A DNA stretch of 64,000 nucleotides. Source: a virus. Under the pieces are notes generated by a model. That model was given only the letters and a program-made list of their open reading frames with translations. It was not told where the DNA came from and did no database searches. This document shows, piece by piece, positions 3,278 to 32,447 of this stretch; position 1 is the stretch's first letter, and each line of letters starts with the position of its first letter. The position numbers were made by a program, and so were the translations under genes. Where the stretch lies: IMG/VR virus record IMGVR_UViG_3300036770_005504, positions 1-64,000 of that record; one strand, written 5' to 3'.

Positions 3278-3318
3278 TTCATGGTCGAGGGTATCAAATA
3301 AATATTCTCGACCATGAA
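3278..3318 (+). promoter_or_regulatory. Late promoter inside an inverted repeat over a start codon
   Basis: Perfect 12-bp arms (3278-3289 and 3307-3318) flank AATAAATA at 3297-3304. The 3' arm contains the ATG of the gene at 3314. Late transcripts should start near 3310 and so lack the 5' arm. Longer read-through transcripts would fold and hide the start codon. This matches the known T4 layout at genes such as e, soc and I-TevI. The repeat is seen directly; its regulatory role is inferred. Confidence 0.6.
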
Positions 3319-4234
3319 CAATACAATTGTCTGGAATGATGGATTAAACAATTATCGACACCATCAAATTTCTTTCCAAAATACACAGATACTTTATCAC
3401 TGTCATCTCGACGATGACCCAACCTCAACAAACAACCTAGATACTGCAATATCTCAAATACTAGAAACTTTTTGTAGTCAACCGATTGAACTATTGTATA
3501 GTGGTGGGCTAGACAGTGAATTATTATTGGTAAAGTTAAAAAAACTAAATTATCCAGTTCAAGCAATTACAATGAAATTGTATTGTCGTGGCTATCCTGT
3601 CAATACACATGATTTGTATTATAGTGAAAAATTTTGTCGACAGCATGATATTACACAAAAATTCATCGAACTAGACATTGAACAATTTTTCGAAAGCGGT
3701 CGTTATCTTGACTATCTGACCAAGTATTATATACAAGAACCACATGTGGCCACTCATTTTTGGATGTTTGAACAATGTGACAAATTTCCTGTGTTGGCTG
3801 GTGAATACACATGGCCCTGGGTGTCTGTACCAATTTTAAGTCCACATAGATTAGAATACAGTTGTTATGACCGTTATCTAGCTGACCATGGTATAACAGG
3901 AATTGGTAATTTTCTAAACTACAGTTATGATATTAATACTGCAATGATTTCTACTCACTGTGCTGTTTTTAAACAACACAATTTTATGTTAGATAATCGC
4001 AATTTACCTGTATTCAAAAAAAAATTCTACGATCAAATAAGTGATCATGATTTTGAAATACGTATGCGTAATTCAGGGTGGGAAAACCTGCCTAGATCTG
4101 TATTCAATAAAAATCGATATCGATTAGAATTAATACAACAATATCGACAAGTTGTTAAATCATCAATATCATGGTCAAAAAATCTAGCTGACATGTTAGG
4201 CGGAGAAATTTACTGTAATGATCGATACAACTAA
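3314..4234 (+). CDS. Asparagine-synthetase-like PP-loop ATPase
   Basis: 306 residues. LLYSGGLDSELLLVKL near residue 60 is the N-type ATP-pyrophosphatase loop, and the region VLAGEYTWPW near 157 sits where AsnB-type enzymes have a second active-site loop. There is no N-terminal glutaminase domain. Such domains adenylate a carboxylate before amide-bond formation. The substrate is unknown. The zinc site of QueC and the C-terminal motifs of TilS are absent, so it is neither. It is the first gene of a three-gene plus-strand unit and overlaps the next gene by 17 bases. Confidence 0.6.
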   Translation: MNNTIVWNDGLNNYRHHQISFQNTQILYHCHLDDDPTSTNNLDTAISQILETFCSQPIELLYSGGLDSELLLVKLKKLNYPVQAITMKLYCRGYPVNTHDLYYSEKFCRQHDITQKFIELDIEQFFESGRYLDYLTKYYIQEPHVATHFWMFEQCDKFPVLAGEYTWPWVSVPILSPHRLEYSCYDRYLADHGITGIGNFLNYSYDINTAMISTHCAVFKQHNFMLDNRNLPVFKKKFYDQISDHDFEIRMRNSGWENLPRSVFNKNRYRLELIQQYRQVVKSSISWSKNLADMLGGEIYCNDRYN

Positions 4235-4775
4235 TTTTAACTTTGACAGTTTTAGTCATGGCCAAATACTGAGTAAATTATGGTTATGCCAACAGTTGGA
4301 ACCACATCTTTTGAGTCAACAAAGTATTGCTGTTTTGGGTTGTTGGTATAATACCTTGGCATTGATGTTGAAAATACGTGGCAACAATCAATATATTGTG
4401 GGCTATGACCATGACCCACATGCTATTGCAATGGCCAACAGAATTTGTGATAGTTGGTGTCTTGATGGAACTGTCCGACATCAACAAGTAGATGTCAATG
4501 GCATCGATTTTGAACAATTCGATGTGATAATCAATACCAGCAGTGAACATATGAACGGTCATTGGTTTGATCGTGTCAACAGTGGCACATTGATCTGTAT
4601 ACAAAGCAGTGATATCACGGACCGCTCTCCCCCTTGGCTTGTGACTAATCCTGTGGAAGATTTCAATGATTTTGTCAATAAATACAGGTTGTCACAGACT
4701 TTATACACAGGAAAGAAATTTTTTGACTACGGTAAATTGACTTATCATAGATTTATGATCATCGGAATTAAATGA
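4218..4775 (+). CDS. SAM-dependent methyltransferase-like protein
   Basis: 185 residues of Rossmann-like architecture: SIAVLGCWYNTLALML (degenerate glycine loop), YIVGYDHDPHAIAMAN (acidic end of strand 2) and FDVIINTSSEHM (strand 4). The glycine-rich loop is weak (GCWYNT), so activity is uncertain. It overlaps both neighbours, a PP-loop ATPase and an oxygenase-like protein, which suggests one pathway. Confidence 0.5.
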   Translation: MIDTTNFNFDSFSHGQILSKLWLCQQLEPHLLSQQSIAVLGCWYNTLALMLKIRGNNQYIVGYDHDPHAIAMANRICDSWCLDGTVRHQQVDVNGIDFEQFDVIINTSSEHMNGHWFDRVNSGTLICIQSSDITDRSPPWLVTNPVEDFNDFVNKYRLSQTLYTGKKFFDYGKLTYHRFMIIGIK

Positions 4776-5338
4776 AACCACTGTGGGAAATCCGTTGGCC
4801 TCGTTTTGAAGAATTTTTCGACACCAATCAACTGAATTTTGATGACCTGGATTTAAAATTTAACTATTTGGTATTATCTAATTTAGATCAGTTGATTTTT
4901 AAAAAATACCACAGATATCAAGATATTGATTGGGATCATATAATTTATTTTAAAAAATCAAATATGGCCGGGTCTATACATACTGACAATACCAAATTGA
5001 CATCCGATCGAACCATCTGGGGTATAAATTGGGTAATTGATGGTGATGGGCGAATGGATTTCTGGGACCAATCACAAGTAACCCCAGTGGGATTGACCAA
5101 TGGCAGTTTGAATAGAGAAAACTTTGGCATCGTAACTAAATTCATAGCCAATGACAAACCATCATCCAGTTTTATATTAAAACGTGATCATGTTTATTTG
5201 ATCAATGCCAGTCAACCACATCGAGCCATTGGGTTTAATCAGCGAAAAATATTCAGTCTCAGAGTAGATCCAATGACTTCTCATTGGTCTTGGGAATCGT
5301 TATTGAAAAAATTTCAACATAGAATGATACCACCGTGA
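4772..5338 (+). CDS. Putative 2-oxoglutarate/Fe(II) oxygenase (DSBH fold)
   Basis: 188 residues. SIHTDN near residue 69 supplies a His-x-Asp pair. YLINASQPHRAIGF near 150 supplies the distal His, followed by an Arg in FSLRVDP that could bind 2-oxoglutarate. The spacing suits a double-stranded beta-helix oxygenase. It starts within the stop codon of the methyltransferase, and its 3' end overlaps the oppositely oriented gene at 5300 by 39 bases. Confidence 0.5.
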   Translation: MKPLWEIRWPRFEEFFDTNQLNFDDLDLKFNYLVLSNLDQLIFKKYHRYQDIDWDHIIYFKKSNMAGSIHTDNTKLTSDRTIWGINWVIDGDGRMDFWDQSQVTPVGLTNGSLNRENFGIVTKFIANDKPSSSFILKRDHVYLINASQPHRAIGFNQRKIFSLRVDPMTSHWSWESLLKKFQHRMIPP

Positions 5339-6079
5339 TTTTTTCCAACTATAGCTACCGCCAAAATAATCTCCCACAAAGTGTGCTTGGCCCAGTGGAT
5401 TTACTTTGTTGAATCTATTTTTGATTTGATTTCGATGCACAAGTTTAGAACTACGAGGCTTACTATTCATGAAACGACTGATAATGTCAACCACATCGAG
5501 ATCAAGCCGCCAATAGATATCAGTCCATAATTGTGCACGTGATGACATCGAGTTTTGCACAGATTGCCAATATGTCTCAAATGGATAATGCCAACACCAA
5601 GACGCTCGACTTCTTATAAAATCGATATTCTTAGGCCAAGTATCATTGGGATGTAAAAATACAAAATCATCATGATTAAGACCATTGGCATCAATAATAT
5701 CTCGAACTACATGCCAAGAATTATAATACCCATTGGTGGCATCTTGGTTATAAAATGTAAAATCTTTGCCAAAGTTTATGCCATCATAGTCAACTAAAAA
5801 TACCTTTAAGCCCGGGATCATTTGTTTAATAGCGATGGCATACAAACCCAATCCGCTGCCTATGTCCAATATTGAGTTAAAATTGTAATCTATCATGTCG
5901 GATGTAAAGGTCAAAATATGATGTAATTTTCGTTTGACCCAATTATCGAATCCATTGGGTTGATTTATCCAATACCAGTTGTTGCCGTTTTGTAGCAAAA
6001 AGTATTTTTTAAAGTCTTGAAAATTATTAATCATTAGACTAATTTTTTGACCCTGATAATCAAATGATAAATCGGTCAT
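5300..6079 (-). CDS. SAM-dependent methyltransferase
   Basis: About 259 residues starting at MTDLSFDYQG. This start is chosen because its ATGA overlaps the stop of the upstream gene; an in-frame start 11 codons further up lies inside that gene. SILDIGSGLGLYAIAI near 80 is a good motif I, VFLVDYDG is the motif II acidic strand and DDFVFLHPND is motif IV. Class I fold, substrate unknown. The two following features (6076 and 6590) are its operon partners. Confidence 0.7.
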   Translation of the reverse strand: MTDLSFDYQGQKISLMINNFQDFKKYFLLQNGNNWYWINQPNGFDNWVKRKLHHILTFTSDMIDYNFNSILDIGSGLGLYAIAIKQMIPGLKVFLVDYDGINFGKDFTFYNQDATNGYYNSWHVVRDIIDANGLNHDDFVFLHPNDTWPKNIDFIRSRASWCWHYPFETYWQSVQNSMSSRAQLWTDIYWRLDLDVVDIISRFMNSKPRSSKLVHRNQIKNRFNKVNPLGQAHFVGDYFGGSYSWKKSRWYHSMLKFFQ

Positions 6080-6600
6080 GGCAGAATCTCGTCGAATACA
6101 ACAAAAACCCAATCTTGATCACTGTGATTTTCATAGGCATGAGGTAAACATAATGCAAAGTCTACTAGACTATTCTGATAGTCATTGGGATTGGCCACAA
6201 TTTGATTGTCTAATATCAATGTCACGGGAGATGGAATCTCTAAATAAATCTGATATCGACGAACGATGTTCATCTTTTTGGCATGAATTAAGTCGTTGTG
6301 TAGTCTAATTTTGCATTTGGGCAAAATTTTATGTATATAAGCTCGACCCAACAAACCACCATTTAATACATTATCAATGATATTCATAGTATTGGGGAAC
6401 AATTCTGGTCTAGTTGGTATCAATGGATTGGACCAATTCAGATGTATAGTCAATCCTTCATAAAGAGCTGTTAAATTTTTTTGATATGGCAGAACATGTT
6501 TAATCCACACACTGGAATCTATTTGTGCTAATTCTGTGCAGATATTATGTTGTTCTTCCTGTGTCAATGATCTAATTATTTCAGTTTGATTAGCTGGCAT
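6076..6600 (-). CDS. Aspartyl/asparaginyl-hydroxylase-like oxygenase
   Basis: 174 residues. LPKCKIRLHND near 95 gives a His with a following Asp, RRYQIYLEIP matches the R-H/Y strand typical of the Asp/Asn beta-hydroxylase family, and LPHAYENHSDQDWVFVVFD near 155 matches the distal His-Asn-Ser-Asp block. The family hydroxylates side chains with Fe(II) and 2-oxoglutarate. Here the substrate is unknown. Coupled to the methyltransferase by an ATGA overlap. Confidence 0.55.
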   Translation of the reverse strand: MPANQTEIIRSLTQEEQHNICTELAQIDSSVWIKHVLPYQKNLTALYEGLTIHLNWSNPLIPTRPELFPNTMNIIDNVLNGGLLGRAYIHKILPKCKIRLHNDLIHAKKMNIVRRYQIYLEIPSPVTLILDNQIVANPNDYQNSLVDFALCLPHAYENHSDQDWVFVVFDEILP

Positions 6601-7198
6601 GATGTTGAATTTCTTTAACTATGTCTTGCCAGTATAAATCGTCGGGCTGGCTAAATCGAATAGTTAACACATGTCGATAGTTTGAACTTTGTGTATTATC
6701 GAAATCGTGGTAGATGTCTGTATTAAACAGTATACATTGATCTTGTTCAAACACAGTTGATGTGGCTGGTTGATGATGTTGTTTTTGAAAATTTTCCAAT
6801 TCTCTACTGACACCATTGAGATCATTGAGTTTATACGATTCTTCCACATTGTTGTCATACCAACTGGTAATACAAAATTGGTCACGACAATCAATTATGT
6901 AATTTAATGCAGCTCTGATAGTTTGTCCGTCTTTGTGTGCTCGATAGTAGTGCCCGGGTGCAGTAGAAAATATACTGGCATAGGCTTTTAGCCCCTGTGT
7001 GACATACCGAAATGGAGAAAGTTTTAATAACAGTTCGCAATCGTGTTTGTTTATGCGTTGATGACGAAAATGCTGTGTACCACGGACAAACTCAAATTTT
7101 TCCTCGATCAAAATTTGACGAGCATATTCCACAATTGTTTTTTGTTCACTGTGTTCGATTATACAATAATAGGGAAATTTTGTTGACACTATTTTCAT
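6590..7198 (-). CDS. Aspartyl/asparaginyl-hydroxylase-like oxygenase
   Basis: About 202 residues starting at MKIVSTKFPY; the in-frame extension upstream crosses a promoter repeat and is rejected. YRAHKDGQTIRAALNYII near 91 supplies His-x-Asp and the strand that follows. LFNTDIYHDFDN near 168 supplies the distal His, with a conserved Arg in LTIRF. It is the promoter-proximal gene of the 7198-5300 unit. Its ATG coincides with the predicted +1 of a late promoter. Confidence 0.5.
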   Translation of the reverse strand: MKIVSTKFPYYCIIEHSEQKTIVEYARQILIEEKFEFVRGTQHFRHQRINKHDCELLLKLSPFRYVTQGLKAYASIFSTAPGHYYRAHKDGQTIRAALNYIIDCRDQFCITSWYDNNVEESYKLNDLNGVSRELENFQKQHHQPATSTVFEQDQCILFNTDIYHDFDNTQSSNYRHVLTIRFSQPDDLYWQDIVKEIQHHAS

Positions 7199-7203
7199 CT
7201 GAA

Positions 7204-7236
7204 TATTTAGCTTAAAAAATACCCATAAGCTAAATA
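7204..7236. promoter_or_regulatory. Divergent late promoters forming an 11-bp inverted repeat
   Basis: Arms 7204-7214 and 7226-7236 are perfect complements. Each arm reads GCTAAATA outward. On the minus strand the five-base spacer leads exactly to the ATG at 7198. On the plus strand +1 would be near 7242, giving a 17-base leader with AAGGA before the gene at 7259. Confidence 0.5.
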
Positions 7237-7258
7237 GAACTATACAAGGAAAATTGTC

Positions 7259-7678
7259 ATGATTGGACTGATACTCAGAATTTCTATTATAGATCAATCT
7301 TCGATCGCTTGGCCTGGCCAATCAAAATTTCTCAAGAATGAGGCATACTATCTTGATCTGTTTGGGCAACAATTATTTGACAACATGAAAAATTATATTC
7401 AATCATTCCGTCAATTTAGTGTAGGTCATTTAATCAGTGCCACTGATTTCAAATCCGACAGCCAAGGAAATATTATTAGATGGCGATTGTTTTCCAGTCA
7501 AGAAGATTATGATTTATTTAATACACTGTCCAATGTTGAATTTGACAATCATAGAATTGCACTTTGTGACACCATGAACTTGTCAATTACTATCAAAGAA
7601 ATCACAGACCCCACAGTAATTGATCAAATTTTAGCAATCCCAGATCCCACATACGAAGATTATAACAGTTTTATCTAA
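7259..7678 (+). CDS. Hypothetical island protein
   Basis: 139 residues, no recognised family, no signal peptide or membrane helix. It has an AAGGA ribosome-binding site at good spacing and a late-type promoter upstream. It is an isolated plus-strand gene; its end overlaps the end of the PLP enzyme gene by 4 bases. The alternating pattern in the middle (KSDSQGNIIRWRLFSS) suggests a small alpha/beta fold. A role as a partner or substrate of the island enzymes is possible but unsupported. Confidence 0.55.
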   Translation: MIGLILRISIIDQSSIAWPGQSKFLKNEAYYLDLFGQQLFDNMKNYIQSFRQFSVGHLISATDFKSDSQGNIIRWRLFSSQEDYDLFNTLSNVEFDNHRIALCDTMNLSITIKEITDPTVIDQILAIPDPTYEDYNSFI

Positions 7679-8598
7679 TTCATTGGCAGAGTTCGGGATT
7701 TTAAATATTGACTAAAGCAAAGACGATTTTCTTTACCACCTCTGTTGTATTCAGGGTATTTAACAGTTGATAAACCGAATACCACAGTGGGGCTAGGGTC
7801 AACCTCTAGCTGTCGACAAAATTCGATTTGAGTGGATCGATATTGATTATAATTATAATCTGGACTGTAACCATTGATATATTCTAATCCCACTGCAGCC
7901 GACAATCGATTAGTATAATTGTTGCCATTATAGACAGATATTGGGTCGGACATTTTTTCAGCAGTTAATCTCATACCAATTCTAAGATGCCCGGCACCCG
8001 GAAATGCTTTACTAAGACTAAATGCAATTACTTGAATACAGGGGTGACTGAAATCAAATACCAAACCGCCGGCTAAATGTAAATAACTACAATCAATCAA
8101 CACTGGAATTTTTAATCTATTGCATTTCTCCAATATTTCTGTCATGTCAGGATGTGCACCGCCATTATTGGCAAATGGTAAACTTATGGCCACAACATCT
8201 GTGGGCAACAATTCTTGATCTTCGAGATAGGCAAACTCTTTAAAATATTGTTGATTGACAATAGACCAATACATGTATTCGCCGCGGAATGTTCTGAGTC
8301 GACGGTCACAATGTGAAAGACAAAACACATTAAAAGTTTCTGTAGTACCTTGTGTAAAATCACGGAACTGAAATCTGTCAATACCAATGATATCATTGTT
8401 GATTGTTTGTTGATTCCAATGCCAATATCTATCTAGAAACTTTTGATTTATGTCAACATCATTGAGGCAACCTGAATAAATCTGTTTAGTGATCATGTCA
8501 ATGACACGAGTCTCTAACTGTCGATCTGCCACGGGATATATACTGCCAAATGGCAGAGATTTCATGCTCAACAATTGATTCCAGTTTTTCTGACTCAT
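7675..8598 (-). CDS. PLP-dependent aminotransferase-like enzyme (fold type I)
   Basis: 307 residues. DFTQGTTETFNVF near 80 fits the cofactor phosphate-binding turn. PVLIDCSYLHLAGG near 170 contains the Asp that pairs with the PLP ring nitrogen and a Tyr three residues on. IAFSLSKAFPGAGHLRIG near 195 contains the Schiff-base Lys and the usual R-x-G after it. It is shorter than typical aminotransferases (about 400), because the small domain is reduced. It could transaminate or decarboxylate an island intermediate. It overlaps the oxygenase gene upstream by 4 bases. Confidence 0.7.
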   Translation of the reverse strand: MSQKNWNQLLSMKSLPFGSIYPVADRQLETRVIDMITKQIYSGCLNDVDINQKFLDRYWHWNQQTINNDIIGIDRFQFRDFTQGTTETFNVFCLSHCDRRLRTFRGEYMYWSIVNQQYFKEFAYLEDQELLPTDVVAISLPFANNGGAHPDMTEILEKCNRLKIPVLIDCSYLHLAGGLVFDFSHPCIQVIAFSLSKAFPGAGHLRIGMRLTAEKMSDPISVYNGNNYTNRLSAAVGLEYINGYSPDYNYNQYRSTQIEFCRQLEVDPSPTVVFGLSTVKYPEYNRGGKENRLCFSQYLKSRTLPMN

Positions 8599-9359
8599 AA
8601 TGTATATCTTGAGTTGGGTTCAGCTGATGACAATTTTTGATCTGTGATACTGGTTCTTAGACCTGTAATGACCAAATTGGGCCTAGGATGAACACTGAGA
8701 TTCATGGTGCCATGCGGTACATTCAGTGTATCGAACATGTGAATATCTCCAGCGTGCCAACCTGTTAATACCGCATTGCCGTAACACATGACTTGTCCAG
8801 GCTCGTAATCGGCCAAGTTTACTACAATTCTTATGATTCGACTGGGGTCGCTGGGATTACGATGCCATAGCTTGTCGATATGCATACCAAATGCTTGCCC
8901 AGGCCATTGCACATGAATTCGATATGTGACTTTTTCTAAACTCCAAAAATCAACCATTTTTTCTATGATCGGATAATTTTTTAATGTGTTTTCTAATACT
9001 AAATTAGTTTGATCTACATCCTCAAGCCCGTGCTGCTGTCGATCGTATTTTTCCTGTTGCTGCATAGGACTGGCTCCATCTTTAAATCCTGGGCGTAAAT
9101 TTTGAGATGTGCTTTGATCCCAAGTCAGTTGTTGACTTTGCTCTAAGATATTTGGCAATATTTCTGACCAATCGCCAATAAATCTACCCAATCGATGAAA
9201 CCATTGTCCTTCGAGATCAGTCTGCCATTTATCAAAATGATAGTTACTGAATGTCTTGGCATACTCATAACTGCTGTGAAATTTATTGCCATCTTGATGA
9301 TTGAAATCATCGGGCAGTTTGGGATATTTAACTCGTTGGGTATATATGTCAATATTCAT
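8595..9359 (-). CDS. 2OG/Fe(II) oxygenase-like protein (Asp hydroxylase type)
   Basis: 254 residues. FGMHIDKLWHR near 157 gives His-x-Asp; RIIRIVVNLADYEPGQ and WHAGDIHMFDTLNVPHGTMN near 205 give the core strands and distal His. The Arg in ITGLRT could hold 2-oxoglutarate. This is one of the clearest oxygenases in the island. Its ATG lies at the predicted +1 of a late-type promoter. Confidence 0.62.
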   Translation of the reverse strand: MNIDIYTQRVKYPKLPDDFNHQDGNKFHSSYEYAKTFSNYHFDKWQTDLEGQWFHRLGRFIGDWSEILPNILEQSQQLTWDQSTSQNLRPGFKDGASPMQQQEKYDRQQHGLEDVDQTNLVLENTLKNYPIIEKMVDFWSLEKVTYRIHVQWPGQAFGMHIDKLWHRNPSDPSRIIRIVVNLADYEPGQVMCYGNAVLTGWHAGDIHMFDTLNVPHGTMNLSVHPRPNLVITGLRTSITDQKLSSAEPNSRYTL

Positions 9360-9361
9360 AA

Positions 9362-9389
9362 TGATACTTATCTTGAATAATAAGTATCA
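9362..9389. promoter_or_regulatory. Divergent late-type promoters forming a 10-bp inverted repeat
   Basis: Arms 9362-9371 and 9380-9389 are perfect complements. Minus-strand GATAAGTA plus five bases reaches the ATG at 9359 exactly. Plus-strand AATAAGTA predicts +1 near 9392 and a leader containing AAAGG before the ATG at 9410. The G in the element departs from TATAAATA, so strength is uncertain. Confidence 0.45.
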
Positions 9390-9409
9390 ATACATTAAAG
9401 GTTTTTACA

Positions 9410-10549
9410 ATGGATCTTGTCAAGAATTATCCTCAGGGATATTATCAAGTTGGTAATAAGTTATATATTAATAAACACACTGCCATGGTAGAAGCAGTGA
9501 ATAACCACAACAATGAAAAAATTTCTTATCATTTTTTCGATGAGTCATGGACAAATTTTGATAGAAACAAAATAGGTCAGTATTCTCTCAATGAGCTTTA
9601 TCGTCAACGAGCTCAACAATTAAGAAATCAATATGATTATCTTATTTTATATTTCAGTGGTGGTGCCGACAGCTATAATGTATTAAGGTCTTTTTGTGAT
9701 AATAATATACATCTCGACGAAATATGTGTCAAATGGTGCACCGATGTGTTTAACAGTAATCGACACATATATACACCCAACACCGTCGATTTGACATCCT
9801 ACAACTATCTCAGTGAATGGGACTACGCAATAAAACCAGTATTAGAATGGGTAGCTCAACATCATTCAGACATAAAAATCACAATATTAGATTGGTTTAA
9901 AGATCGAGACTCGACCACTATCGCTAATGCATTTGCCCTGGTCAATCATTTTCACGATTGTGAAATTAATAGTTTAGCAATCTGGAGTCCAAACGAAGCT
10001 CGACAATTAGAGTTAGGCAAAACTGTGGGCAGTATATACGGTATAGACAAACCCAATATGTTCATTGATACTAATAGTCAACAATGGAAATTATTTTTTT
10101 CTGACACCACCGTGGCAATGGGCACACCAAATCCGGACAATGTCTGGGGGACAGAATATTTCTATATCACACCCAATATGCCCGAGATTATATTTGAAAT
10201 GGCACATCAATTGATTATCGAATCTCGTAATAATAATTTGTTAGCTCAGGTATTAGATATAAAAACAGCCAACAATATGTCCGAGTTTCAGGTCAGACAA
10301 AAAATTGTCAGACACATACTATACAATAATTGGACAGATAGGTTTCAATGTTTTAAACCCACTATCAAAGAAAGAAGCGACAAGCATTTTTGGATCTATA
10401 GGTCCGACGAGTTAAGTGACTACAAAAATCTCTACGAAGAACTCAAAACATATTATGATCAACAACTTGAGCACAGTCGATATCGTGGACAACGAGCATT
10501 AATTTATCAACCATTGAATTCAGCAGGATTTCCAATTTGCCCAAAATAA
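9410..10549 (+). CDS. Asparagine-synthetase-like PP-loop ATPase, paralogue A
   Basis: 379 residues. The segment LYRQRAQQLR is followed by LILYFSGGADSYNVLRSF near residue 85, the N-type PP-loop. The same order, with the conserved NNIHLD that follows, recurs in the protein at 13134, so the two are paralogues. The C-terminal half (LGKTVGSIYGIDKPN) is also shared. No glutaminase domain and no QueC zinc site. It presumably activates a carboxylate or carbonyl by adenylation; the substrate is unknown. Confidence 0.6.
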   Translation: MDLVKNYPQGYYQVGNKLYINKHTAMVEAVNNHNNEKISYHFFDESWTNFDRNKIGQYSLNELYRQRAQQLRNQYDYLILYFSGGADSYNVLRSFCDNNIHLDEICVKWCTDVFNSNRHIYTPNTVDLTSYNYLSEWDYAIKPVLEWVAQHHSDIKITILDWFKDRDSTTIANAFALVNHFHDCEINSLAIWSPNEARQLELGKTVGSIYGIDKPNMFIDTNSQQWKLFFSDTTVAMGTPNPDNVWGTEYFYITPNMPEIIFEMAHQLIIESRNNNLLAQVLDIKTANNMSEFQVRQKIVRHILYNNWTDRFQCFKPTIKERSDKHFWIYRSDELSDYKNLYEELKTYYDQQLEHSRYRGQRALIYQPLNSAGFPICPK

Positions 10550-11248: not shown

Positions 11249-11258
11249 GATGCATTAT

Positions 11259-12173: not shown

Positions 12174-12174
12174 A

Positions 12175-14294: not shown

Positions 14295-14344
14295 TGAAAT
14301 ATTTATATTTGGATATATTGTCGGATAAATATTTCAATGATTGG
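14287..14344. promoter_or_regulatory. Divergent late promoters in a 20-bp perfect inverted repeat
   Basis: Arms 14287-14306 and 14325-14344 are perfect complements with an 18-base centre. Minus-strand TATAAATA (14300-14307) and plus-strand GATAAATA (14324-14331) each sit five bases before an ATG (14294 and 14337). Both start codons and the first Ile-Gly codons lie in the arms, so promoter, start site and N-terminus are mirrored. Confidence 0.7.
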
Positions 14345-15080
14345 ATTGGGATCAAATTCTGCAGCATTTAAGTATTTAGATGAGTTTGTTAGTTGTCCGG
14401 ATTGGAGTCAACTTCACACTGATGTTTGTTATGGAATAGCCCGAAGCCACTGGAATAAAAGATATGTCAGCAGTGGAATTCATGATGATTTTGCTGACAA
14501 AGAAATAACCCCTTATGTTCGAACACTAGAGCATCATCTAACAGATCATGCACTGGACAAATTTAATCTATTAGACAACACAGATCAACGGTTGAAATTT
14601 GTGTCCGCATGGGGACCAATCCCTCATCCCTTTTGGTTAATTTATATTAGAGATAATAAACGTATCGAACCCACTGGTATTTTTAATAAATCTCTGGCAC
14701 AAGATTGTGATTGGACAGACAATAAAAAGTATTTTGGCAGTTTAATTGATTTCATAGAGCAACTGCCTTTTCAACAGTTGGGAAGAATAATTTTGTTTAT
14801 GACTGAAGCCAATAATGCCACACTACCACATTATGATGGTGCTCATCGATTTGAGCGGCCATCTGATGATTTTGTTTGGTTTACCACAAAACCTTCCACT
14901 AAACAGATATTTGTATTTGATGAGTTAACCAAGAAAAAACACTATCCTGACCCTGGCAAAAAACTAATATGGTTCAATGAGATGGATTTTCACGGCACTG
15001 ATCCAGTGGACCATTTTTCTTTTAGTATACGCATAGACGGACAATTTAGGTCAGACATAAAACAAAGATTATTAAAATGA
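14337..15080 (+). CDS. 2OG/Fe(II) oxygenase-like protein
   Basis: 247 residues. TLPHYDGAHRFE near 163 gives His-x-Asp, the strand DFVWFTTKP follows, and FNEMDFHGTDPVDHFSFSIRIDG near 222 gives the distal His plus an Arg that could bind 2-oxoglutarate. The N-terminal 130 residues are unlike the other island oxygenases. Translationally coupled to the radical SAM gene by a 4-base overlap. Confidence 0.58.
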   Translation: MIGLGSNSAAFKYLDEFVSCPDWSQLHTDVCYGIARSHWNKRYVSSGIHDDFADKEITPYVRTLEHHLTDHALDKFNLLDNTDQRLKFVSAWGPIPHPFWLIYIRDNKRIEPTGIFNKSLAQDCDWTDNKKYFGSLIDFIEQLPFQQLGRIILFMTEANNATLPHYDGAHRFERPSDDFVWFTTKPSTKQIFVFDELTKKKHYPDPGKKLIWFNEMDFHGTDPVDHFSFSIRIDGQFRSDIKQRLLK

Positions 15081-16537
15081 ATATTATATTTTGGACCGGG
15101 GTGTTTGAATTGTCCACTCATTACCGCGCGATTGGTGCTTATCAGTTGGCCAGCTGGATGAGAAAGCACGGTTATAGTTGTCAGGTCATTGATTTTGTTC
15201 ATCATATGTCTGTGGATGAATTAATAAAGTTTACTGAAAAATTCATTACGTCAGACACAATATGTATAGGGATAAGTTCGACGTTTTGGAGTCAATTAGT
15301 TCCTAGAAATAAAACCTGGTCTATGTCAAGATTTTCTCCAATCACTGTGCCGGACATCATAGAATCAGCATTGCTTGAACTTCGTAAAAAATATCCCACG
15401 GTGAAATGGGTATTGGGCGGAGTCAGTGCTGACTTCATCCCTCCGGAATCCTATCAACTATTTGATGTTTCTATAGTGGGCGATGCTGAAGATACTTTTC
15501 TTGATTTGGTAAATTCTTGGAAAAATCAAAAAAGAATTTTTCACAGTGTGACTCGTGGCGGTCGTCCTTTTATGAATGCACAGCCCAATCGGATTTTTGA
15601 TATTCAACATTCAACACATCGATTTCTGCAGCAAGATTGCATAGTGCCCGGGGAAACATTACCTATAGAAATCAGTCGTGGTTGTATATTTCGTTGTGCA
15701 TTTTGTCAATATCCTCATTTGGGCAAAACTAAATTTGATTATCTCAGACAGCCAGAATTGATCGGTGAAGAAATTGAATATAATTACCAACAATTTAAAA
15801 CTCAAAATTATTATATCTTAGATGACACATTCAATGACAGTGATTATAAAATGCAGGGATGGCAAACTTCATTGTCTAAACTGAATTTTACAATTAATTA
15901 TACTGCATATCTCAGAGCTGACTTGTTGAACAGAAATCCAGACCATATCCATCTATTGCAAAATACAGGATTGGTCAGTGGTTTTTTTGGTATAGAAAGT
16001 TTTAATCCCGAAGCCAGTCGAATTGTGGGCAAAGGATGGAGCGGAAAACAAGCACAAAAATTTTTACCAGAATTGAAATCATTATGGAAAGATAATACCA
16101 CTTTTCATTGTAGTTTCATTGTGGGTCTCCCACCGGAAACAGTCAACGAATATTTTGCCGCTCAACAATGGCTGATAGACAACAATATAGATTCTTGGGT
16201 GTTTAAACCTTTGTTGATCACGCCCGGCACACGAACAATGAGCAGTGATTTTGATCGTAATTACGAAAAATACGGTTTTGTCTATGATCCAGGCACACAG
16301 GGATGGTCTAGTCAATATTTAAACAGCAAAAAAGCAGTTACAATCGCAGCCACCCTTAATAAGATCAGCGAAAAATATATAAAAACCACATCCTGGAAGG
16401 CATTGAGTTTGATGGGGTTGGGTGTGGATAAATCACAACTATTGAACAAAAAAGCCAATGAATTGGATTGGAACGATATTCATAAAAAAAAGCAAGACTT
16501 TATCGCAACCTATAAAGAAAAATTAAATGCTTTATAG
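15077..16537 (+). CDS. B12-binding-type radical SAM enzyme
   Basis: 486 residues. The N-terminal 150 residues have the layout of a cobalamin-binding Rossmann domain (YQLASWMRKHGYSCQVIDF, VLGGVSADFIP, SIVGDAED) but lack the DxHxxG cobalamin ligand, as many members do. ISRGCIFRCAFCQYP near 203 is the CxxxCxxC cluster. FFGIESFNPEASRIVGKG and GLPPETVNEY match the Elp3/MiaB-like core. These enzymes methylate or rearrange unreactive carbons. The pairing with an oxygenase is reminiscent of natural-product or peptide-tailoring clusters. Confidence 0.85.
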   Translation: MNIIFWTGVFELSTHYRAIGAYQLASWMRKHGYSCQVIDFVHHMSVDELIKFTEKFITSDTICIGISSTFWSQLVPRNKTWSMSRFSPITVPDIIESALLELRKKYPTVKWVLGGVSADFIPPESYQLFDVSIVGDAEDTFLDLVNSWKNQKRIFHSVTRGGRPFMNAQPNRIFDIQHSTHRFLQQDCIVPGETLPIEISRGCIFRCAFCQYPHLGKTKFDYLRQPELIGEEIEYNYQQFKTQNYYILDDTFNDSDYKMQGWQTSLSKLNFTINYTAYLRADLLNRNPDHIHLLQNTGLVSGFFGIESFNPEASRIVGKGWSGKQAQKFLPELKSLWKDNTTFHCSFIVGLPPETVNEYFAAQQWLIDNNIDSWVFKPLLITPGTRTMSSDFDRNYEKYGFVYDPGTQGWSSQYLNSKKAVTIAATLNKISEKYIKTTSWKALSLMGLGVDKSQLLNKKANELDWNDIHKKKQDFIATYKEKLNAL

Positions 16538-16545
16538 AAAATGTT

Positions 16546-17079
16546 TCAATGTTCGAATAATTCCGTCTGTCGTATTGACTCAGGATACTTGTATCTCATG
16601 GTGATAAAATATCTGTGGTCGGGGCCTCCATTGGCCACACTGTGCATCACAATATTATTGATGACATAGACTCCTCCTTTGACAAAATGGCAGACATGAC
16701 TACGTGCATTGACTCGGTCATACCACATCATCAAGACTTGAGGATTGGTTATGATGGGAATTTGTAATTTAATTAGATTAGTGGGTCCGTAATGCTCGGG
16801 AATTCTGTTTTTTAAAATATCTGTGTGCTCGGGCATATAAGTGTAAGGGCTCATTCTTGCTATATTACTATTGAAATGACCATCGGATCGTAACCAATTA
16901 TTTAAAAACAACAACAATGATTCCAATAAATCCGACTTAATAGGTGCATACACTTGTATTATATCATCTGGAAAACTACTTGAAGCAAAATAGTCTAGAG
17001 TAGTAACATAATCGACAAATTTTTCAATGACATTGTCTGGCAGTGTGCAGATATGTCGGCAAAAAAAATTATGTTTCAT
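16546..17079 (-). CDS. Oxygenase-like protein (Asp hydroxylase type)
   Basis: 177 residues. YTYMPEHTDIL near 103 provides His-x-Asp; LIKLQIPIITNPQVLMMWYD and YVINNIVMHSVANGGPDHRYFI near 150 provide core strands, the distal His and Asn, and an Arg. Same general family as 6076, 8595 and 10520. It ends 8 bases from the end of the radical SAM gene on the other strand and overlaps the gene upstream by 4 bases. Confidence 0.55.
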   Translation of the reverse strand: MKHNFFCRHICTLPDNVIEKFVDYVTTLDYFASSSFPDDIIQVYAPIKSDLLESLLLFLNNWLRSDGHFNSNIARMSPYTYMPEHTDILKNRIPEHYGPTNLIKLQIPIITNPQVLMMWYDRVNARSHVCHFVKGGVYVINNIVMHSVANGGPDHRYFITMRYKYPESIRQTELFEH

Positions 17080-17654
17080 ATTATGGGATTCAACTCTGAA
17101 TTATATTTGGTGTTGATAATACAATTATTTTTGTCTGCATTTTGTTCTAAAAACTGTTGATAATATTTCAATGCCAACTGCTGTGATATTTGTCGGTAAG
17201 GCAGCAAATGTCTGACTTCAAAACCACTGTCATAAATGCCTTGCCCCAAAGAAATTTTTTCTTGTTCAGTCCATTGGTGTCCTGACTTCAGTGTCGGTGT
17301 TTGATCAAATATACTTTTGATTATGTCAACACTGCGCCAAATTTCAATGTAGTCGATACTGTGACTGATACTATTTAATACTTTGACTCTCCAAACTAGA
17401 TTACCATTGGCTCCACTGTCATCAAATACTTGATTGTGATTACGCCACACCTGACCTAGATGTTGAGTTTGTGTCCTGACATTGAGCCCTCGAGTATGCC
17501 CATTGGCAAAATAGTTTTTTATGAATTGCTCATTTTCAAAACGATGTTGAATCCATAGATATCTCACAGCCCAACCAGGCTGGTTGTCAGGATCTATTAG
17601 ACCGAACATTTCTTTGAGATTGTCATTGAAAAAGCATTCTGTCAAATAGTTCAT
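17076..17654 (-). CDS. Hypothetical island protein
   Basis: 192 residues, soluble, rich in Gln, Asn and aromatics, with no recognised motif. It lies between the desaturase and an oxygenase and overlaps the latter by 4 bases, so it is probably part of the same pathway. Confidence 0.55.
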   Translation of the reverse strand: MNYLTECFFNDNLKEMFGLIDPDNQPGWAVRYLWIQHRFENEQFIKNYFANGHTRGLNVRTQTQHLGQVWRNHNQVFDDSGANGNLVWRVKVLNSISHSIDYIEIWRSVDIIKSIFDQTPTLKSGHQWTEQEKISLGQGIYDSGFEVRHLLPYRQISQQLALKYYQQFLEQNADKNNCIINTKYNSELNPII

Positions 17655-17657
17655 ATG

Positions 17658-18449
17658 TTATTTCAATAGAGGTAACCAAATTCGACAAGGATCCCATTCC
17701 CACCAACGACCACTGACACTAGACCCAAAATCAAATGAACCGGGTGAATGGTGATGATTGTTATGCCACCCTTGACCCCAACCCAGATATCCCATTACAA
17801 CATTGTTATGAGAGTTATCATGTGTATCAAAGTTTCTATAACCAATGCCCAGTGGCAAATGTCCCACTATATTAATGGTGTTGTCCTGCAGAAGACTCAA
17901 TGCAGTGGGCAAACATAATAAACACAAACTCAATTTCCAATCAAATAAACTCACCACAATTGGTGCTAACCATAATATTTTAAAATGATTTTGATGAAAC
18001 CAAATATGGTTGGGTTTACGTAATAAGTCACTGGCATATTTTAAACTAATGCCAGGATTATTTTCTGTGATTTGATTTGCCCAGCCAAAAAATGCATGAT
18101 AAATTCCATGTTTTGGACTATGTATGTCTCGATCAGTGTCGGCAAATCTGTGGTGATATCCACGATGTATAGCAGTCCATGTAATACTAGATCCTTGACC
18201 GCCTAGGCTGCCCAAGAATAATATGAAATTTTCTTTCCACAGTGGTAGATTGGGATGTGTTTTATGACTGAAAATTCTATGATAACCCACTGCTATACCC
18301 AGGCCAGAGATCAACGTCCAGCCCAATAATGTAGCAAATAGATATTGAACTGGAATAATATTCATGATTATCAATGCAATTGTGATTGCACCCAAACACA
18401 TAAATGGAATGAAACTGAACCAAGTATACTTAGAAATATTTTTAAACAT
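17658..18449 (-). CDS. Membrane fatty-acid (acyl-CoA delta-9 type) desaturase
   Basis: About 263 residues with four hydrophobic segments and the three histidine boxes of stearoyl-CoA-type desaturases: HRIFSH, HRGYHH and HNNHHH. It would place a double bond in an acyl chain at the inner membrane using a di-iron centre and O2. An in-frame TTG seven codons upstream is possible. The ATG at 18449 is preferred because a late promoter at 18471-18478 predicts a start near 18465. A role in membrane lipids or in a lipid part of the island product is inferred. Confidence 0.88.
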   Translation of the reverse strand: MFKNISKYTWFSFIPFMCLGAITIALIIMNIIPVQYLFATLLGWTLISGLGIAVGYHRIFSHKTHPNLPLWKENFILFLGSLGGQGSSITWTAIHRGYHHRFADTDRDIHSPKHGIYHAFFGWANQITENNPGISLKYASDLLRKPNHIWFHQNHFKILWLAPIVVSLFDWKLSLCLLCLPTALSLLQDNTINIVGHLPLGIGYRNFDTHDNSHNNVVMGYLGWGQGWHNNHHHSPGSFDFGSSVSGRWWEWDPCRIWLPLLK

Positions 18450-18470
18450 TGCAAAAACCCATTGGTTCAA

Positions 18471-18478
18471 TATTTATT
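18471..18478 (-). promoter_or_regulatory. Late promoter upstream of the desaturase (AATAAATA)
   Basis: AATAAATA on the minus strand with +1 predicted near 18465, 16 bases before the desaturase ATG. It overlaps the stop region of the gene at 18477. Confidence 0.45.
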
Positions 18479-19082
18479 ATAAACCAGCACCCAATATCAG
18501 TTTCGACCTATATTTTTGTCTAAGGAAGCTACACCTTACCACAGTGTCAACTGGTAATAAAACTCTGTTAAATAAAATTTGCCAATGGTGTGTATAGAGA
18601 CATCGATGTCTAGCTGGCACATAGTATTCATCAAAGTAATCATATCTTTGTTGACTGTGTGTCGACAACGCAAATCTTCTCATTGATCGCATATACCGTT
18701 GATGCCAAAGACTATAAAATTTTAGTCTGCCGGTTGATTCTTGAAATTCAATCATTCGATCAGTCATCTGATGAACATAGTGCAATTTACAATCTTTGTT
18801 GGATTTGATCTGTGTATAAAACCAGCTGGGTTCGTCGATACTTTGATATGATGAAATCAAAGCCACTAATTTATTGTCTACCCATGCACCCAATGCATGA
18901 TAGCCAGTCAAGTCACTGAGATAAGCATTAACAAAGTTGTGATAGTATTGTGTATTTTGGTCGTGTTGTTCGTAGGGTTTCAAATAGAATTCGTTGATAT
19001 TATTCTTGCCCATATAACGGTCATCTAAAAATAGTTCACGAACTGATGGACGATCGTCGGCAGTCAAAAACTTTATTTCCAT
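18477..19082 (-). CDS. GNAT-like acyltransferase (putative)
   Basis: 201 residues. FLTADDRPSVRELFLDD at the N-terminus and GYHALGAWVDNKLVALISSY near 75 follow the first helix and the beta2-beta4 sheet of GNAT proteins. The acetyl-CoA loop is not obvious, so function is tentative. It overlaps the PP-loop gene upstream by 10 bases, as if the acid-activating and acyl-transfer steps were paired. Confidence 0.45.
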   Translation of the reverse strand: MEIKFLTADDRPSVRELFLDDRYMGKNNINEFYLKPYEQHDQNTQYYHNFVNAYLSDLTGYHALGAWVDNKLVALISSYQSIDEPSWFYTQIKSNKDCKLHYVHQMTDRMIEFQESTGRLKFYSLWHQRYMRSMRRFALSTHSQQRYDYFDEYYVPARHRCLYTHHWQILFNRVLLPVDTVVRCSFLRQKYRSKLILGAGL

Positions 19083-19996
19083 AATGGAGCACTCAACTGT
19101 TGAATAATTTGTGTATATGAGATACCATCAATATTGTGCACCAGACGTCGACATTGATTTCTACCAATTGTTTTTGTTGATAAAAAGTTAAAAGCCAATA
19201 ATTCTTCAAAGCCATGAGTCTTTTTTTTGGGTGTGACATAGGGGCACAATCGTTTTAGTATACGATTTTTACTACTGACCGAAGTCAATTTATAGTTATA
19301 TTTTTCACTGACTAGATTTTTTATATCTGTATCGGTTAGATAATACAACAATAATTCTGGAGTATAACTGAACCATTCGTTGACCAGTGGTAAATTATAC
19401 TTTAAACTAAAACGAATAGCACTGGCATCTTCATTTTCTCTAAATGTCCAATACCAGTAACTGGGATCAGCATTGACATGTCTAGACAGCAGTGCCTCGC
19501 CGCCCATTACTGCTGCAGTCTGTAATTGATGAATAATTTTGTAACAGATCAAGTAAGTGATTTGTGTGCATTGTATAGAATTGCCAAACTCCTCAGCCTC
19601 ACCACTGAATAAAAAATCTTTGACATCAAAATCAACGACCTTGAGTGGCAAGTTCAGTGATGTAGCGATACGTTGAGCTTCTTCCACATCAGTTATATTG
19701 TGATTGTTTTTAAAACGTATGGTCACACAAGTTGGGCGATGGCCAATTTGAACAAAATTATTAGCCACTATTTCGCTGTCTGTGCCTCCGCTCAACAGTA
19801 ATATAAAATCTCGACCATAGTCATTGGCAACCAAATGAGCAGTTCTTTGTAATTCAGACTCAAAATTACTTTTGTTAAATCTGTCGGGATCAACTGAACC
19901 CACCGAACACTGATAAGTTTCATATCCTTGTTGTCGATATCCATATAGTCTATCGTCGATATGATATTTCAAATGATTTTGATAAGTGAAATTCAT
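19073..19996 (-). CDS. Asparagine-synthetase-like PP-loop ATPase
   Basis: 307 residues. FILLLSGGTDSEIVANNF near residue 67 is the N-type PP-loop. AVMGGEALLSRH near 160 resembles the second AsnB loop more closely than in the other island members. No glutaminase domain. It is flanked by two GNAT-like genes (18477 and 19993) with short overlaps on both sides, suggesting amide formation on an acyl or amino intermediate (inference). Confidence 0.62.
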   Translation of the reverse strand: MNFTYQNHLKYHIDDRLYGYRQQGYETYQCSVGSVDPDRFNKSNFESELQRTAHLVANDYGRDFILLLSGGTDSEIVANNFVQIGHRPTCVTIRFKNNHNITDVEEAQRIATSLNLPLKVVDFDVKDFLFSGEAEEFGNSIQCTQITYLICYKIIHQLQTAAVMGGEALLSRHVNADPSYWYWTFRENEDASAIRFSLKYNLPLVNEWFSYTPELLLYYLTDTDIKNLVSEKYNYKLTSVSSKNRILKRLCPYVTPKKKTHGFEELLAFNFLSTKTIGRNQCRRLVHNIDGISYTQIIQQLSAPLWK

Positions 19997-20520
19997 GCTC
20001 TATATTCTGCCACCCATTGAGGAGTAAAGTATATATTTTTTTCACCAATGGGATGGAATTTTTTGTAGATAGGTGGCCAATTGTCGAACAATGCAGTTCT
20101 ACGTCCTTGTTGTGACCTCACAAACCAATTGTATATAGCAGAATTATAATCGTTGACAGTTATCCACCGATTAATATAATTTTGTGTATCAGATATTTGG
20201 GATGGTAAAATATGTTGAGCTAATAGATATTGTGTTCTATATTGCTGGTTGACATAGGACCTTGACAACAATAATGCAGTATTGTTGTTGTATTCGTTCC
20301 AACCGGCACTGGCTATAAACTTTCCGTCTTCCTCTAATACTGTATAACAACCTTGTTTATATCTTCCGTTTTTTAACAGATAAAAAACATTACCAGTTTT
20401 GTCACTGTGATCCGGGTGGTAATTTTCTATAATGTCATTATTTGTAATAGTGGCAAATTCTGATTTTAGTATATTGATGATTTTGTTATTGGCAAGATCA
20501 TGAATATGATGTATAGTCAT
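19993..20520 (-). CDS. GNAT-like acyltransferase (putative)
   Basis: 175 residues. The segment YTVLEEDGKFIASAGWNEY followed by LLLSRSYVNQQYR looks like GNAT strands beta2-beta4 and the start of the CoA-binding helix, and the end (NRWITVNDYNSAIYNWF) fits the GNAT C-terminal lobe. The assignment is by pattern only. Overlaps both neighbours by 4 bases. Confidence 0.45.
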   Translation of the reverse strand: MTIHHIHDLANNKIINILKSEFATITNNDIIENYHPDHSDKTGNVFYLLKNGRYKQGCYTVLEEDGKFIASAGWNEYNNNTALLLSRSYVNQQYRTQYLLAQHILPSQISDTQNYINRWITVNDYNSAIYNWFVRSQQGRRTALFDNWPPIYKKFHPIGEKNIYFTPQWVAEYRA

Positions 20521-21239
20521 GAATTTAATACCGCCGATATTTGTGCAGCATTTAGTATATTATCCCAAGGATTTCCTTTGATAGTTTTGCCGTCGAGAAC
20601 ACCAAATGGATGATGATAAATTTTTTCCAGGTCTTGATAGATGTTTTCGTAAGTCACTGAATCGAATGTGATACCCGACAAACATTTATCAACATTGTGA
20701 TGAAAATTTTCAATACTGGGTTTTAGAATTTTCAGTGTATAGTCAATGATTTCTGGGCTGATATAAATTTTATCAGTCAAGGAGCTACCGATACCGAAAA
20801 TATTTCTTTTGTAGATTTTTTTAGAACTCAGTGCAATAGCATAGCTCAACAATTGTTCGTTGATGTTTGCTCTTGACAGTTTAACAAATTTAAATCCTAT
20901 TTTGTTCAATGACGAACATATTGACAATAATGTTTGTTGACTATAGTGATTCATTACAAAAAGTCGAATAGTCATGGGCTGGGTTTGGTCAGCAGCAGAT
21001 AAAAATTTAATTTTATTCTGGTAATCCGAATCAATTTCAAACAATGAATCTTGAGATTTTGTGTGAGACAACACAATATAATTTTTATCATCGCATTGAT
21101 ATTCGCTGCGATTCCAGTTTTCGAAGTATTCGCCTAGATCAGTGGCAGAATTTAGTTCGCTGATTATTTTTGCACATAGTTGACTACCGGACCGCGGAGT
21201 GCACAATATACAAACACGACCATTTAGATAGTCATTCAT
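20517..21239 (-). CDS. Sulfotransferase-like protein
   Basis: About 240 residues from the ATG at 21237-21239. Extending the frame upstream would overlap the next gene and is rejected. RVCILCTPRSGSQLCAKII at the N-terminus is the 5'-phosphosulfate loop of PAPS-dependent sulfotransferases (PRSGS), and IGFKFVKLSRANINEQLLSYA near 122 fits the 3'-phosphate-binding region (Arg and Ser). It would transfer sulfate to a carbohydrate or small molecule. It lies just downstream of an APS-kinase-like gene that could supply PAPS. Confidence 0.65.
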   Translation of the reverse strand: MNDYLNGRVCILCTPRSGSQLCAKIISELNSATDLGEYFENWNRSEYQCDDKNYIVLSHTKSQDSLFEIDSDYQNKIKFLSAADQTQPMTIRLFVMNHYSQQTLLSICSSLNKIGFKFVKLSRANINEQLLSYAIALSSKKIYKRNIFGIGSSLTDKIYISPEIIDYTLKILKPSIENFHHNVDKCLSGITFDSVTYENIYQDLEKIYHHPFGVLDGKTIKGNPWDNILNAAQISAVLNS

Positions 21240-21246
21240 TGAACAA

Positions 21247-22104
21247 TTATTCAAGACCCATGCTTTGTCGTATCTTAGTAGCAGATATACTGTGGATCTC
21301 GTCAGACAGCATTTCTTGAGTAATACGATAGCCCACATCTCTACCGTAGACAATTTCTGTAATATTTGGAACAGTGATAACCTGATATTGTCCTTGATAG
21401 AATGGGTCAAGGTCTCTGCGAATCATCGATGATATCTGACTGAAATCAAATGGGTTACTATTGTTCCATCCTTGACAATCTCGAACTTGTATAACAACTT
21501 GTCCAGTTTTAGTCAGTGCACGTTCAAACAATGCACGATGTCCTGCATGCCAAGGTTGATATCGACCCAACATTAATGCAGTTTCTTTCTGCCAATTAAA
21601 AATTGGTCGTCGTTGGTTGTTCAATATATGGTGGCCCACAAACGGCACCCATTTTTCGGCATTTTTTTCTGTAATACGGAAATCGTAATCGTTGGGTGGC
21701 ACAAATATGCGATTAGTGTCTTCGTAACGACCCTCATCAATGGTGTCCATCCAAATAGTCCAATCGGCTTTAAAATTATAGCGCATTTCGGGCAATGGAG
21801 CCACAAAGTCGCAGATCACAAAATCGCTATTACATTCCAATGCAAATTGTGCCATACGTAGACTTTGGCGTATACGGCCATCATGACTAAAATCCCAATC
21901 GTTATATTTTTGTCGCACTTGGTCGGCGTTGAACCAATCAACTTGAGCATGCCAATTATGTGGAGGTTGATCAAATTGACACATACGTTCTGTTGAAATG
22001 TTAGAGATATTGCTGAAATCCTCGAGATATTTTTTTAATTTCTCAGCAAAATGTGTCTTGCCAGACCCAGGAAGGCCGCAGATTAATATTTTTTTTGGTT
22101 TCAT
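21247..22104 (-). CDS. Fused APS-kinase-like / HxGH nucleotidyltransferase
   Basis: 285 residues from MKPKKILICG; the longer frame runs into tRNA-Pro. The N-terminal part has GLPGSGKTHFAEKL (P-loop) and the layout of adenylylsulfate kinases (VDWFNADQVRQ, GRIRQSLRMAQFAL, DFVICDFVAPLPEMR). The C-terminal part has LGRYQPWHAGHRALFERA (HxGH) and ISATKIRQSM, as in NMN/cytidylyl-type nucleotidyltransferases. Together they could make PAPS or activate a sulfur or sugar compound. The second half is not a standard ATP sulfurylase, so the overall reaction is unsure. Confidence 0.7.
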   Translation of the reverse strand: MKPKKILICGLPGSGKTHFAEKLKKYLEDFSNISNISTERMCQFDQPPHNWHAQVDWFNADQVRQKYNDWDFSHDGRIRQSLRMAQFALECNSDFVICDFVAPLPEMRYNFKADWTIWMDTIDEGRYEDTNRIFVPPNDYDFRITEKNAEKWVPFVGHHILNNQRRPIFNWQKETALMLGRYQPWHAGHRALFERALTKTGQVVIQVRDCQGWNNSNPFDFSQISSMIRRDLDPFYQGQYQVITVPNITEIVYGRDVGYRITQEMLSDEIHSISATKIRQSMGLE

Positions 22105-32264: not shown

Positions 32265-32447
32265 TTACCAACTTTCGATATCAGTGATATCAATTTTAAT
32301 TTTTGATTTAGATTCAAACTCAGCAGTGACTACAGATCCAATTCCACTGGAATTATCGAATATCAAATCTACATGATCAGGGTCATATTTTTCGAAAATT
32401 TCTAGTAATTTTTTAAATTCACCACGAGTCATTCGAAAAGATTTCAT
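32265..32447 (-). CDS. Small hypothetical phage protein
   Basis: 60 residues if it starts at the ATG overlapping the QueE stop (TAATG). An N-terminal helix is followed by a beta hairpin (VVTAEFESKSKIKIDIT). Function unknown. Confidence 0.55.
   Translation of the reverse strand: MKSFRMTRGEFKKLLEIFEKYDPDHVDLIFDNSSGIGSVVTAEFESKSKIKIDITDIESW

Follow-up and report, generated by a model that had tools for sequence, protein, structure and literature searches.

A block of enzyme genes built around PP-loop and solute-binding proteins in a lake-type virus of bacteria: a possible small-molecule assembly system

Introduction

What might a virus of bacteria do with about 20 enzyme genes set in one block? 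The question is raised by the stretch of DNA analysed here, positions 1 to 64,000 of IMG/VR virus record IMGVR_UViG_3300036770_005504 (64,000 nucleotides, hereafter the window), which belongs to a 73-kb virus record that may itself be a fragment. The virus is a lake-type virus of bacteria, and its record holds phage genes, replication genes of the T4-like kind included, among them those for DNA polymerase, a clamp loader, dCMP deaminase and GroES- and PhoH-like proteins. The block of enzyme genes, which we call the island, had been taken in a preliminary description made from the letters alone to be a biosynthetic system of the phage, in which two exported solute-binding proteins appeared as extras. 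What stands is that the enzymes belong to a conserved system, and the word "biosynthetic" fits its gene content as far as sequence can tell; the binding proteins, on the other hand, are no extras, as no other partner of the PP-loop enzymes is so well conserved as the TctC proteins, and the two form a conserved module that the preliminary description missed. We propose that the conserved core is an ATP-using PP-loop ligase with solute-binding proteins and that the variable remainder consists of tailoring enzymes. On our preferred reading, put forward as possible rather than probable, the island is a phage system for small-molecule assembly: carboxylates are captured, PP-loop ligases activate them and tailoring follows.

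A conserved module of PP-loop, TctC and DctP genes

The PP-loop and TctC genes of the island are as follows.

3314..4234, plus strand: P1, AsnB-like PP-loop protein without a glutaminase domain (SGGLDS at residue 63; weak QueC and PP-loop Pfam matches; aligns with P21)
9410..10549, plus strand: P10, hallmark PP-loop family of new architecture (SGGxDS; AlphaFold2 model)
11259..12173, minus strand: P12, exported TctC solute-binding protein (PF03401 E=2e-21; signal peptide by hydrophobicity)
12175..13137, minus strand: P13, exported TctC whose start overlaps P14 by 4 bp (PF03401 E=7e-57; signal peptide by hydrophobicity)
13134..14294, minus strand: P14, PP-loop paralogue of P10 (36% to P10; SGGADS)
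19073..19996, minus strand: P21, AsnB-type PP-loop synthetase without a glutaminase domain (AlphaFold2 pLDDT 90; Foldseek AsnB 3e-7)

The order P14-P13-P12, that is PP-loop, TctC, TctC without a DctP gene, is the window's copy of the core module. Related loci were taken as the best 80 of each scan; the contigs that carry them are metagenomic and may be fragments, and near-identical ones were collapsed only roughly. Of 90 distinct P10-type genes, 24 are directly followed on the same strand by a TctC gene, mostly with a 4-bp overlap, 13 by the gene of another PP-loop protein and 5 by that of a DctP-like protein. A TctC gene within 400 bp of a PP-loop gene was observed in 18 of 35 cases, where random placement within the same records (2000 runs) gives an expectation of 0.57 and a maximum of 5. 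The reverse search, which makes no selection on PP-loops and shares some contigs with the first set, recovered a P10-type PP-loop gene in 35 of the 38 TctC-fetched loci; its query was a P12-type alignment in place of P13, which found no viral relatives as a lone query. Furthermore, the PP-loop-adjacent TctCs are spread over several lineages of the TctC tree, whose supported branches force at least nine label changes, and because of this scatter one inherited adjacency is not sufficient to account for the pattern.

The third component, a DctP-like protein whose gene often comes after that of TctC in the module, has relatives on 457 viral contigs. A protein with the SGGxDS motif, of one of several PP-loop types, lies within 3 kb of 47 of 57 distinct DctP genes, and among open reading frames (ORFs) of at least 250 aa the motif is enriched near DctP (64/153 near, 16/189 far, p=2.7e-13). 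By motif count, 10 loci have a small DUF2061 (PF09834) membrane protein close to DctP, and in none of them does TctC occur as well (29 loci with TctC, 10 with DUF2061, p=3e-4); in two loci, L211 and L249, the DUF2061 protein fills the TctC slot between the PP-loop and DctP genes. Whilst all 54 TctC proteins possess a signal-peptide-like stretch, such a stretch is absent from all 17 DctP proteins of the first set and from 56 of the 57 of the second, and in three records (G031, G036 and G037) DctP is split into two half-length ORFs. The module is well supported, and no description of it was found in the open-access library searched.

Both kinds of binding protein resemble components of known transporters. 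P12 and P13 score 77 and 193 bits against PF03401 (cut-off 27) and are, like the TctCs of tripartite tricarboxylate transporters and the orphan TctCs of the Bug type, exported; they differ in that no TctA was found in the window's record and that the TctC gene is coupled to a PP-loop gene, the two overlapping by 4 bp. Burkholderiales typically carry orphan TctCs, and the TctC-rich genomes in the sampled class are compatible with a host from this order. The DctP-like proteins of related phages match PF03480 (E 1.6e-46 and 7e-51), the family of the tripartite ATP-independent periplasmic (TRAP) transporter DctP, but are without a signal peptide, in some cases split into two ORFs, and lie beside PP-loop genes.

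Such likenesses invite the explanation that the island serves nutrient scavenging, the binding proteins boosting organic-acid uptake and the oxygenases breaking the acids down for energy or carbon, with the PP-loop proteins secondary. TctC and DctP are uptake components, TctA is found in 6 of 50 phage records, tctA has been reported on SUP05 viral contigs with its role unknown (PMC4164917), and related islands encode TauD, Rieske, P450 and amidohydrolase enzymes. However, TctC is most tightly coupled to a ligase-type protein that consumes ATP and not to a catabolic enzyme, and DctP-like proteins of seemingly cytoplasmic location, split into two ORFs in some records, are a poor fit to ordinary transport; scavenging seems unlikely.

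Two other features were observed near the module. An AhpC-type peroxiredoxin gene and an AhpD-like gene lie immediately upstream of PP-loop, TctC and DctP genes in one locus (L053, 8816-13184). A class I glutamine amidotransferase gene, a possible ammonia source, is found 2.5-7 kb from PP-loop genes in L211 (11327-12037), L055 and L057.

Distribution in viruses and cells

Blocks related to the island occur in hundreds of other viral sequences, and the P10 family alone is present on at least 265 viral contigs. In cells it is almost unknown: a single occurrence was found among 84,980 prokaryote species genomes, on a phage-like 3-kb contig of a metagenome-assembled genome that also carries PP-loop and DctP genes, and none in 398 other sampled Pseudomonadota genomes. 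The oxygenase family of P9 is likewise absent from these 398 genomes save for one weak partial match. In a tblastn search of 50,697 GenBank phages no relatives of P10, P21 or P9 were found, and matches to the TctC and radical S-adenosylmethionine (SAM) proteins were weak and confined to unannotated faecal contigs.

Could the island then be a hot spot where passenger genes of host origin have gathered, unrelated and without a shared pathway? Its content is highly variable between phages, both strands are used and its G+C is slightly below that of the rest of the window. The near absence of the P10 and P9 families from the 398 Pseudomonadota genomes argues against it, as do the retention of catalytic motifs and the adjacencies conserved across non-redundant groups: when near-identical contigs were collapsed into 67 groups, P10 stood next to P12-type genes in 16, P19 next to P21 in 6, P9 next to P12 in 6, P20 next to P21 in 4 and P8 next to P10 in 3. 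One phage (L002) has 11 island families in common with the window, so the genes do not behave as unrelated singletons across phages, and we disfavour the passenger explanation as improbable.

Metabolic genes on aquatic phages are familiar as auxiliary metabolic genes, such as those for 2-oxoglutarate (2OG) oxygenases and the tctA of SUP05 viral contigs (PMC4164917), but these have been reported singly; here several genes recur together as a module, which includes a ligase-like family almost restricted to phages. The related islands add further enzymes, namely P450, carbamoyltransferase, Rieske, TauD, SPASM radical SAM, ATP-grasp, AMP-ligase and fatty-acid hydroxylase proteins as well as an amidohydrolase. 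One of them (L016, 79-5070) has four tandem SPASM radical SAM genes.

The PP-loop proteins

All four PP-loop proteins, P1, P10, P14 and P21, retain the SGGxDS motif. They had all been described as AsnB-like, which holds for P1 and P21, whereas P10 and its paralogue P14 are a new family that shares with known folds just the PP-loop core. The P21 model (pLDDT 90) is matched by Foldseek to AsnB (E 3e-7), beta-lactam synthetase (TMq 0.48), carbapenam synthetase and LarE, and on these matches P21 is an AsnB-type synthetase domain without the glutaminase domain; Pfam gave no match to an N-terminal Ntn glutaminase domain in P1 or P21 (306-307 aa). The likeness to AsnB-type amide synthetases (AsnB, beta-lactam and carbapenam synthetase) thus extends to the fold (TMq up to 0.48) and the SGGxDS motif of P21 but not to the N-terminal glutaminase, and P10 and P14 form a separate family with the PP-loop core alone in common. 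AsnB-type PP-loop enzymes convert carboxylates into activated adenylates, as established for AsnB and beta-lactam synthetase, and beta-lactam pathways likewise pair an AsnB-type enzyme with 2OG oxygenases.

For P10 the model, built from a 76-sequence alignment, has a pLDDT of 92.7. Foldseek found no match to it in the PDB at E<=1e-3, and its resemblance to LarE, GMP synthetase and NAD synthetase is in the PP-loop core alone; comparison of the family with solved structures by profile gave no convincing match. Its close matches among viral models are all uncharacterised proteins from uncultured phages.

A QueC identity for the PP-loops was considered and rejected, as P21 and P1 score 25 and 17 bits against TIGR00364 (cut-off 150) and the fold of P21 is AsnB-like. 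This bears on the explanation that the island modifies DNA or tRNA, its PP-loops acting on nucleotides beside the phage tRNAs and 7-deazaguanine genes. A TilS-like gene and tRNAs do stand at the island border, FolE, QueD, QueE and YhhQ-type genes are present at 32-38 kb and P21 is weakly similar to QueC; against this, P21 has its AsnB-like fold and falls far below the QueC cut-offs, and nucleotide chemistry would leave the solute-binding proteins with no role. We consider this explanation very improbable.

The TilS-like PP-loop protein is encoded at 2304-2948 of the window, adjoining phage tRNA genes (PF01171 E 1.8e-36). The 7-deazaguanine genes, QueE-like, YhhQ-type Vut_1, PTPS/QueD and GTP cyclohydrolase (FolE), lie at 32447-38111, where no clear QueC or DpdA was noticed.

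Boundaries and enzyme content of the island

The island proper runs from 3314 to 21410 and is flanked by tRNA groups; nearly all genes outside 3.3-21.4 kb are on the minus strand. Its start, the use of both strands and the short overlaps of 4-39 bp, all noted in the preliminary description, are real in the sequence (39 bp between P3 and P4, for example, and 4 bp in each of the pairs P14/P13, P21/P22 and P2/P3). Its end had been placed at 22104, taking in a supposed fusion of adenosine 5'-phosphosulfate kinase and nucleotidyltransferase. The P-loop kinase is there, the second domain is rather nicotinamide mononucleotide (NMN)-adenylyltransferase-like, and the fusion, which is 57-58% conserved in related phages, is probably outside the island. 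P6 and P24 appear to begin later than listed, at internal ATGs that give a better fit. The remaining island genes are listed below.

4218..4775, plus strand: P2, methyltransferase-like (MTS/Methyltransf_25 sub-threshold; homologues in other islands)
4772..5338, plus strand: P3, 2OG/Fe(II)-type oxygenase by motif (HTD70 and distal H; no Pfam match)
5300..6112, minus strand: P4, methyltransferase-like (GidB/Methyltransf_16 sub-threshold)
6076..6600, minus strand: P5, Asp/Asn hydroxylase-type oxygenase (PF05118 23.1 bits, cut-off 22.6; HND101 and distal H)
6590..7321, minus strand: P6, 2OG-type oxygenase, better started at an internal ATG (HKD129 and distal H; 33-38% homologues in 3 loci)
7259..7678, plus strand: P7, small protein with no family match
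7675..8598, minus strand: P8, small pyridoxal phosphate (PLP) enzyme of aminotransferase I/II type (Aminotran_1_2 sub-threshold; 44-52% relatives in 13 viral loci)
8595..9359, minus strand: P9, 2OG-type oxygenase kept across islands (26 viral loci, identity up to 65-67%)
10520..11248, minus strand: P11, 2OG-type oxygenase (HID110 and distal H; homologue in L002)
14337..15080, plus strand: P15, 2OG-type oxygenase (HYD165 and distal H; 53-55% relatives in L029/L088)
15077..16537, plus strand: P16, radical SAM protein with a B12-binding-like N-terminus (PF04055 E=4.5e-14; CxxxCxxC; B12-binding sub-threshold)
16546..17079, minus strand: P17, Asp/Asn hydroxylase-type oxygenase (PF05118 21.4 bits, just under cut-off; HTD85 and distal H)
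17076..17654, minus strand: P18, no assigned family (44-51% relatives in other islands)
17658..18470, minus strand: P19, fatty-acid desaturase (PF00487 E=2.4e-11; three His boxes)
18477..19082, minus strand: P20, GNAT-like in the preliminary description, not confirmed (41-47% relatives; adjoins a P21 homologue in 4 groups)
19993..20520, minus strand: P22, weakly GNAT-like (Acetyltransf_1 E=0.15; 49% relatives)
20517..21410, minus strand: P23, sulfotransferase-like by the motif TPRSGS (no Pfam match; sulfotransferase-like protein in related islands)

Loss of catalytic sites, named beforehand as a finding that would tell against an enzyme system, was looked for and not seen. Besides the SGGxDS of the PP-loops, the HxD...H set is kept in all seven 2OG-type oxygenases (P3, P5, P6, P9, P11, P15 and P17), and HxD with the distal H is invariant across the P9 family (24-row alignment). 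P5 and P17 alone among them have any match to a Pfam model, and the jelly-roll fold of the seven is suggested by the motif. The radical SAM protein, both TctCs and the desaturase (P19, 44 bits against PF00487, cut-off 29.7) pass their Pfam cut-offs and bear out the original calls, while the B12-binding domain of P16 is below its own. The PLP enzyme P8 and the methyltransferase-like P2 and P4 do have matches to the families proposed for them, but below the Pfam cut-offs. The GNAT and sulfotransferase calls (P20, P22 and P23) are motif-level for the window copies and rest also on relatives; that for P20 was not confirmed and that for P23 has no Pfam support. An ABM-like small barrel was considered for P7 and found no support. 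PHROGs offered nothing useful for nearly all island genes, and a PADLOC scan of ten island proteins matched no anti-phage defence system, with superfamily-level matches for P16 and P21 alone.

Some of these enzymes could also be expected if the island decorates a surface glycan, lipid or virion component, such as O-antigen, lipid A or a membrane lipid. AsnB-type proteins without glutaminase act in lipopolysaccharide pathways (WbpG), PF05118 covers the LpxO and OlsC lipid hydroxylases, the P19 desaturase adjoins P21 in 6 groups, and lipid-type B12 radical SAM proteins are among the best NCBIfam matches of P16. These last matches, however, are far below the equivalog cut-offs, no glycosyltransferase was found inside the island, and decoration would leave the TctC/DctP coupling unexplained. 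It would seem a somewhat fainter prospect than scavenging.

Proposed function

Carboxylates are the typical ligands of the TctC and DctP families, and the tight coupling of PP-loop genes to both suggests that the captured ligand is the substrate that is activated, tailoring coming afterwards. In the assembly system that we favour, the exported TctC would capture a carboxylate in the periplasm and a host TctAB permease would import it, some related phages encoding TctA themselves; the ligand may then, in many related phages, be bound or handed on by a DctP-like protein in the cytoplasm, a step for which no gene was found in the window's record. P10 and P14, together with the AsnB-type P1 and P21, would adenylate the carboxylate and join it to an amine, and the product may be modified by PLP, methyl-, acyl- and sulfo-transfer enzymes, the desaturase, the radical SAM protein and the 2OG enzymes. 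The class of substrate, the direction of flux and the ligase chemistry are what we infer from this composition.

Several points weigh against this proposal. The chemistry of P10 is deduced from a predicted PP-loop core alone, and PP-loop enzymes also act in thiolation and in tRNA and nucleotide chemistry. Signal peptides were called by hydrophobicity with no dedicated predictor, 10 of the 57 DctP loci are without a PP-loop gene within 3 kb, and neither TctA nor DctP was found in the 73-kb record, possibly a fragment. TauD, Rieske and amidohydrolase enzymes could be catabolic, and some island neighbours are hitchhikers, since the islands are variable and gene-rich. Small-molecule assembly is a stronger reading than uptake for catabolism, decoration of the envelope or modification of nucleic acids.

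A further suggestion, rather doubtful at present, concerns what the module might be for: a PP-loop ligase, a TctC or DUF2061 membrane protein and a cytoplasmic DctP-like protein would form a module common to hundreds of aquatic phages, which may make and also sense or recycle a small molecule that infected cells produce, perhaps a metabolite or a signal outside the cell. If the module acts as its composition suggests, phages would assemble small molecules with ATP-driven machinery of their own, coupled to the capture of solutes. This would hold across hundreds of metagenomic viral sequences and depend on an enzyme family that is scarcely known except from viruses. It can now be asked experimentally which carboxylate is bound by the phage TctC and DctP proteins, and whether the adjacent PP-loop enzyme activates it.

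Other features of the window

Three genes away from the island deserve mention. A Bax1-I family membrane protein is encoded by the phage at 36718-37410 (PF01027 E 7.7e-52). At 25296-26900 a 534-aa protein with tandem TRAAPTTPELQPARS repeats is encoded on the plus strand amid minus-strand genes, and at 54913-59223 there is a 1436-aa protein with deoxyribonucleotidase-like and metalloprotease-like regions.

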